A DNA stretch of 64,000 nucleotides from Chthonomonas sp. (lineage in GTDB: Bacteria; Armatimonadota; Fimbriimonadia; Fimbriimonadales; Fimbriimonadaceae), in NCBI GenBank assembly GCA_016788425.1, contig JAEURQ010000004.1:496001-560000 (forward strand), given 5' to 3'. This document shows, one piece after another, positions 51,599-52,768 of this stretch. Each line of letters begins with the position of its first letter. Positions within the stretch are counted from its first letter, which is position 1. Both the position numbers and the translations under genes were made by a program. The notes under the pieces are model-generated. The model did no database searches, was not told the origin of the DNA, and saw only the letters and a program-made list of their open reading frames with translations.

Positions 51599-51793
51599 CT
51601 ACGCTTGCGAATCCGGCGGATCCGGAATCGACGCCACTCGCCGCTTACGAATATAGCCGCGCTTGAGCAACCCCTCGCGGACCAGAATTTCAATCTGCCC
51701 GTTGAGGCTTCGAAGCTCGTCATCAGCAAGTCGCTGGAGAGCTTCGAAAACCTCGGGGGTGAGCCGTAACGCGAACGGCTTCTTGTCGGCCAT
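51599..51793 (-). CDS. Arc/MetJ-type ribbon-helix-helix DNA-binding protein
   Basis: 64 residues. KKPFALRLTPEVFEALQRLA forms the ribbon and first helix; DDELRSLNGQIEILVREGLL is the second helix with the conserved Asn-Gly-Gln turn of the RHH fold. The tail is basic. The SPFH gene ends 3 bases before it, so the two are co-transcribed. As I recall, SPFH proteins followed by an Arc-like protein occur in other phyla too. A palindrome over the promoter of the pair (52680-52694) is a plausible operator. It lacks a toxin partner. Confidence 0.85.
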   Translation of the reverse strand: MADKKPFALRLTPEVFEALQRLADDELRSLNGQIEILVREGLLKRGYIRKRRVASIPDPPDSQA

Positions 51794-51796
51794 GGG

Positions 51797-52675
51797 TTAG
51801 TTCAGCGAGCCCGCATTGATGACCGGCTGAGCGTTGGTTTCGCCGCACAGCACAACCATCAGGTTGCTGACCATCTGCGCCTTGCGCTCGGTGTCCATTT
51901 CCACCAAGCCATCGGCTTCGATGCGCTTGAGAGCCATTTCGACCATGCCCACCGCACCATCCACGATGCGCTGTCGCGCGGAGATGATGGCCGCGGCTTG
52001 TTGCTTGCGGAGCATGACGCCAGCGATTTCCTGCGCGTAGGCCAGGTGCGAGAGGCGAGCCTCAATGACGCTGATCCCGGCGAGCGACAGCTTTTGCTGC
52101 AGCTCTTCGCGAAGGTGATCGCCGATTTCGTCGGTGTTGCGCATCAGCGAAATCTGATCGTCCTCGGCGTCGTAGGGGTAGCTCGTGGCCAGGTGACGCA
52201 AGGCGGTTTCGCTTTGCATGGCGACAAATTCGCCGTAGTTTTCGACCTCGAAGAGCGCCTTGTAGGTGTCGTCCACGGCCCACACGATGACGGCCGCGAT
52301 CTCGACCGGGTTACCGACGTGATCGTTCACCTTCAGTTGTTGCCCGTTCAAGGTTTGAGCCCGCAGTGAGATTTTCTTCTTGGTGAAAAACGGGTTCGCC
52401 CAGTAGAAACCGTCGCCGCGCACCGTGCCCTTGTACTCGCCGAACAGCGTCATGGCCGTGGCGAAGTTAGGCTGGTTGACAAAGAAGCCGATGGGGAAGA
52501 ACGTGCCGACGAGCGACATGAAAATGAGCAGGCCGACCATGGGGCCGCCGCCCTTTTCGATGTTGATCAGCGCGTAAAGCCAGATCGGGACAAGACAGAA
52601 ATTGACGAAAAGCATGGGCCATCCCGAGATTGCTGCCTTCGAGATTTCCTTGCGATGTTCCAGATTGTGATTCAT
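51797..52675 (-). CDS. SPFH/Band-7 (stomatin-like) membrane protein
   Basis: 292 residues. Two N-terminal hydrophobic segments (about 17-40 and 47-66) are followed by an SPFH domain (about 80-220; [54 protein letters not shown]) and a helical tail ([20 protein letters not shown]). Scaffold of membrane microdomains. ATG 52675 is used; a GTG lies one codon earlier. It is divergent from mreB across 93 bases. Confidence 0.92.
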
Positions 52676-52679
52676 CACG

Positions 52680-52694
52680 ATATCATACTGATAT
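52680..52694. promoter_or_regulatory. Perfect palindrome ATATCA-TAC-TGATAT overlapping the SPFH promoter
   Basis: 6-base inverted repeats with a 3-base spacer, 5 bases upstream of the SPFH ATG. On the minus strand TATGAT (52687-52682) inside it is a near-consensus -10, exactly 6 bases before ATG 52675. Binding here would block transcription, so it is a candidate autorepressor operator for the RHH protein encoded in the same unit. Confidence 0.6.
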
Positions 52695-52768
52695 GAGTTT
52701 CGAAAGGTTGCAGGAATTATCTTTCCGGTTCATTTTGAGGCAACTTTTCGTGCCAAAATGAACGTACT

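Follow-up and report, generated by a model that had tools for sequence, protein, structure and literature searches.

Two-gene operons under the control of a ribbon-helix-helix (RHH) protein are familiar from type II toxin-antitoxin systems such as RelBE, ParDE and FitAB, in which RHH antitoxins commonly autorepress. Proteins of the SPFH/Band 7 group (stomatins, prohibitins, flotillins, HflK/C, QmcA) combine an SPFH domain with N-terminal membrane segments, and the SPFH1, 2 and 5 subfamilies have NfeD as a partner. The consulted parts of an SPFH survey describe NfeD and FtsH as operon or interaction partners, and those parts name neither an RHH partner nor an operator (PMC2636767). At amrZ1 of Pseudomonas aeruginosa, the RHH protein AmrZ acts as a dimer-of-dimers autorepressor on two half sites separated by a 5-bp linker (PMC3325190).

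Here we describe a pair of genes in the window (the whole 64,000-nucleotide stretch of Chthonomonas sp. DNA that we analysed) whose products are an SPFH protein, with the domain and membrane segments of its group, and an Arc-like RHH protein. The system resembles AmrZ in its Arc-like RHH protein and in tandem-site autorepression, which in our case is predicted from the sequence. However, AmrZ has 108 aa, an oligomerisation domain, half sites of GGC and multiple targets, whereas RHH proteins of the window type have roughly 60 aa, apparently a single target, GATATC boxes and a place in an operon with SPFH. P22 Arc shares the fold, the RSVN motif and the arrangement of two half sites on neighbouring DNA turns, and gave the best profile match, but it is a phage regulator with other half sites; its residues Q9 and N11 are not conserved in our RHH family, while R13 is (as R10). 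The likeness to toxin-antitoxin operons lies in two genes with a putatively autoregulating RHH protein; in contrast to those systems, the RHH gene here comes second and its partner is of the membrane scaffold type, not a toxin, and is also found without RHH.

An Arc-like gene paired with SPFH across phyla

The sequence-only reading had placed an SPFH gene at 51797–52675 and an Arc-like gene at 51599–51793, and Pfam confirms both at these coordinates. The first (minus strand) encodes a 292-aa SPFH/Band 7 membrane protein that belongs to the superfamily by its match to Pfam Band_7 (PF01145, E = 6.9e-21; 75.5 bits against a cut-off of 23.6), and hydropathy indicates two hydrophobic stretches at its N-terminus. 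Its orthologues are 55–65% identical to the window protein, and QmcA was the sole match, a weak one, when the SPFH profile was compared with solved structures. The C-terminal tail of the family (51797–51830 in the window) is strongly conserved with a QPVLNTGTLY-like sequence, perhaps a binding or processing tag.

The second gene of the operon (51599–51793, minus strand) encodes a 64-aa Arc-like RHH protein, the proposed autorepressor. It matches the Arc/MetJ family (PF03869 Arc; score 22.6 bits, cut-off 20.4), and its profile matches P22 Arc (1arq, E = 4e-5) and a permuted Arc (1u9p, E = 8e-10). In an AlphaFold2 model (pLDDT 85.5), both helices of the RHH fold are where they should be; as a monomer model it does not assign the strand, which needs the dimer to form. 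The best Foldseek match of the model was the Arc-operator complex 1par (probability 1.00), which we treat as supportive only because of its E-value of 0.019. Residues K5, R10, R28, S29 and N31 are invariant in the family, and the invariance of the strand residues K5 and R10 among about 95 relatives is consistent with, though not proof of, sequence-specific DNA binding by the paired beta-strands of a dimer. The base-contact positions of Arc and AmrZ are thus partly conserved, invariant R10 corresponding to Arc R13 and AmrZ R22. Position 8 (Arc N11) varies although the operator described below is constant, which counts against the pairing of this protein with that operator; a correlation between position 8 and the box letters was sought across loci and nothing clear emerged.

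A search of 61 Armatimonadota genomes gave 24 clear SPFH orthologues in the order, and in 23 of these 24 loci the Arc-like gene lies downstream on the same strand. Across the 61 genomes, RHH occurs in exactly the SPFH-bearing genomes minus one (G026). The earlier claim that the unit is divergent from mreB does not generalise: among the 24 loci of the order, mreB is the neighbour only in the window's own genome. When genome contigs were scanned with the SPFH alignment, 80 loci were recovered, which by their labels we take to come from Armatimonadota, Pseudomonadota, Bacteroidota, Acidobacteriota, Planctomycetota, Verrucomicrobiota, Gemmatimonadota, Actinomycetota and Ignavibacteria; the phyla were assigned from general taxonomic knowledge, and many loci come from metagenome-assembled bins, whose taxon labels can err. 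By HMM, RHH was present in 99 of 103 distinct SPFH loci, spanning at least nine phyla. Of the four others, L106 runs into a contig end and three complete loci lack it (L012, L056 and L108; from Armatimonadota, Verrucomicrobiota and Bacteroidota by label or kinship), and no RHH was found elsewhere in those three genomes. In 148 gammaproteobacterial genomes, SPFH occurs in 19 and RHH in the same 19, with one weak partial RHH match outside them (G145).

At 13 Bacteroidota loci, genes for small membrane proteins lie between SPFH and RHH or close to them; the same holds for a second small family at 5 loci and for an alpha/beta hydrolase at a few. Pfam gave no useful name for most of these accessory genes. 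By comparison of the genes shared between loci, no NfeD-like family was prominent. These neighbours, together with a perfect operator before a related hydrolase in G015 (see below), hint at membrane or lipid work for SPFH but prove nothing.

Tandem GATATC boxes in the core promoter

The palindrome ATATCATACTGATAT reported by the sequence-only reading is present at 52680–52694 as a perfect 6-3-6 inverted repeat (ATATCA-TAC-TGATAT). It has no further match in the window at up to three mismatches except its own reverse strand (mean 0.10 matches in shuffled windows). A lone 6-bp inverted repeat in a 93-bp gap is weak, unremarkable evidence, and the case rests on conservation. The repeat is real, but it forms only the inner half of two neighbouring GATATC-type boxes, and we therefore take the functional unit to be 52678–52696. 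This putative operator, TCATATCAGTATGATATCG (minus strand), comprises two palindromic boxes exactly 11 bp apart: a promoter-proximal, self-complementary and hence strand-neutral GATATC at 52679–52684, recognised from its sequence and its conservation across loci, and a distal CATATC with one mismatch at 52690–52695 (minus strand), whose spacing is conserved. It agrees with the consensus TGATATCANNNTGATATCA at 14 of 16 specified letters and scores 18.6 with a leave-one-out profile, whereas the highest score among 100 shuffles of that region was 7.3.

Orthologous promoters carry two or three palindromic GATATC boxes with a period of 11 bp, as in L019 (CATATCGATGT GATATCATATC GGTATC), and the consensus from 79 loci reads TGATATCA-N3-TGATATCA. 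We examined the spacing in 100 upstream regions, counting an exact GATATC with a second box of at most one mismatch. Two half sites at a fixed spacing of 11 bp were found in 77 of the 100, all remaining distances from 6 to 16 bp accounting for 4 in total; as controls, shuffles gave 0.06 per 100, and windows taken elsewhere in these loci gave 15 in 2512. In 24 of 100 loci, a third box continues the 11-bp phase. The linker between the 6-bp boxes is exactly 5 bp and AT-rich; even where a locus has an AT content of only 38%, the linker is 81% AT. In 94 of 100 upstream regions, the operator outscored all 100 shuffles of its own region by leave-one-out profile.

Operator and RHH are present and absent together. 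The operator lies within the tested region in 93 of 96 RHH-bearing loci; at two of the others (L082 and L039) it sits further upstream, and the third (L021), with a single clear box, counts against the association. None of the three RHH-less loci has it (Fisher p = 1.3e-4, with only three such loci). In the gammaproteobacterial set, all 18 loci with enough upstream sequence carry the operator, 16 by profile and two by strict pattern, the start position having been misestimated in those two; the nineteenth (G135) starts at a contig end and was left out. This set is nearly independent, one genome (G082) carrying a locus used in building the profile (L090). The distant SPFH paralogues L025–L030 showed no such boxes. 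The sequence-only reading had named loss of the palindrome from orthologous promoters as a ground for refutation; the site is kept in nearly all of them, across phyla. With promoter elements called by consensus only, the offset of the boxes varies but keeps them in the core promoter: they lie in the spacer, cover the -10 or follow it closely.

In the window, the likely -10 (TATGAT, 52682–52687, minus strand; called by consensus) lies inside the operator, and its distance of exactly 6 nt from the SPFH start, as first reported, was borne out (minus strand, 52687–52682). Among 50 long window ORFs, 6 have a TANNNT whose last letter falls exactly 6 nt upstream of the start, an enrichment, and only 2 have a Shine-Dalgarno-like GGAG, AGGA or GAGG near it. 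A leaderless layout thus seems ordinary in the window, which makes that promoter reading credible. The start of SPFH relatives matches CTG codon 5 of the window ORF (52663–52675), the window's CTG-GAA-CAT-CGC-AAG-GAA aligning with MKHEKE. Because relatives begin there, the start may have shifted to the leaderless ATG in the window, with loss of the Shine-Dalgarno sequence and third box that relatives have. Nine SPFH promoters of Fimbriimonadales, those of the window (52712–52706, minus strand) and eight related loci, also have a TGCAAC(C) motif on the upstream side of the boxes. The motif is present as well at the hydrolase gene of G015 described below and is possibly a lineage promoter element.

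Sites per genome

Among 40 pair-carrying genomes, 13 contain the strict pattern GATATCANNNTGATATC, each as a single copy that lies directly upstream of SPFH. Across the 148 gammaproteobacterial genomes it occurs at 13 sites, ten of them before SPFH; the other three (L153, L156 and L158) were rejected as operators, since they fall within what looks like coding sequence or within a terminator-like hairpin. The looser ATATCN5GATAT has two matches in the window's genome, the window operator and one inside an ORF. From the near-uniqueness of the strict site, which would miss weaker ones, the regulator looks local.

Two additional sites in G017 (L119 and L129; C1:858435–858473 and C2:939928–939955) are symmetric four-box repeats with an 11-bp period, in the order GACATC..GATATC..GATATC..GATGTC. 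The first lies between convergent genes and is therefore perhaps a terminator or repeat element, and we did not retain these symmetric repeats as operators. In G015, another genome of the family (Armatimonadota), a perfect TGATATCANNNTGATATCA (L118, C1 around 471180) precedes a gene near mreB that encodes an alpha/beta hydrolase of 325 aa, with 2 nt between the site and the ATG. L079 has a hydrolase related to this one (37% identity across 73 aa) between SPFH and RHH. The G015 gene is a possible second regulon member.

Proposed autoregulation and its alternatives

Comparative evidence strongly supports a putative autoregulated RHH-SPFH unit acting through the site at 52678–52696. The earlier interpretation holds in that respect; its single palindrome has given way to tandem boxes, and its link to mreB is not conserved. 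The reading that we consider very probable is that the RHH protein would be a single-target, Arc-like autorepressor of the two-gene SPFH-RHH operon, cooperative on GATATC boxes. RHH dimers would bind the 6-bp boxes, and dimers on neighbouring boxes, which the 11-bp period and the 5-bp AT-rich linker place a single helical turn from each other on one face of the DNA, would bind cooperatively. By covering the promoter core, bound dimers would keep RNA polymerase out, and this negative autoregulation would hold SPFH and RHH at a set level, with the operon as the regulator's only target in most genomes. We infer the RHH protein as binder, the cooperation of dimers, repression as the outcome and independence from a ligand. 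No ligand should be needed because the protein barely exceeds the Arc DNA-binding fold, and as no ligand domain is apparent, control at a constant level is the simplest function. The window operator itself, with one imperfect box and no third box, counts against autorepression.

Since binding of the boxes by the RHH protein is itself a prediction, a different regulator encoded in trans might bind them, with RHH as a passenger of the operon. Such a regulator would have to be co-conserved over at least nine phyla with one target per genome, operator and RHH are missing together in three phyla, and half sites with a 5-bp linker are exactly the geometry that RHH proteins use; we regard the passenger explanation as very unlikely. 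Activation of the operon by RHH, for which there is precedent in AmrZ at algD, seems to us slightly less likely again. Class I and II activators bind fixed positions upstream of or beside the -35, whereas the boxes here lie over the -10 or downstream of promoter elements at variable offsets, and in the window they lie right next to the start codon; an operator in the core promoter at varying offsets points to occlusion, not activation.

The boxes might instead act in mRNA: each being self-complementary, together they could form a hairpin within the 5' leader, its stem of 8 bp closed by a loop of 3 nt, and they may be transcribed where a TTGACA-like element sits about 27 bp upstream. However, in the window and other loci they overlap the -10 and would fall outside the RNA, the third in-phase box would be superfluous to a hairpin, and the letters themselves are conserved across phyla with no covariation, which makes action at the mRNA level highly improbable. 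Least probable of all is a toxin-antitoxin-like relationship, with RHH neutralising the SPFH protein. Autorepression by RHH antitoxins speaks for such a pair, but SPFH proteins are not known to be toxins, the gene order is reversed relative to the usual antitoxin-first arrangement, SPFH persists in three genomes with no detectable RHH and so does not depend on its partner, and PADLOC gave no match.

Beyond the autorepressor proposed above, membrane sensing by the module is speculation. A pan-bacterial SPFH homeostasis module, in which the Arc-like repressor would be titrated by the SPFH assembly or its lipid-associated partners and the operator kept, or spread as part of the unit, in at least nine phyla, is a tentative and rather doubtful extension; if it were true, membrane state would feed back on SPFH-RHH transcription.

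A full-text search of open-licence papers found no description of the RHH-SPFH pair, and pair and operator are apparently undescribed so far. Autorepression by RHH proteins on tandem sites is known; unusual here is the depth of operator conservation. Operators usually turn over fast. In this case a site of 19 bp stays with its target and its probable regulator throughout at least nine phyla, and losses are shared as well. For RHH biophysics, this offers a natural library of matched protein-operator pairs, and annotators could recognise such modules. For the large SPFH family it would provide a handle, in that RHH removal may raise SPFH and the operator may show when cells want more.
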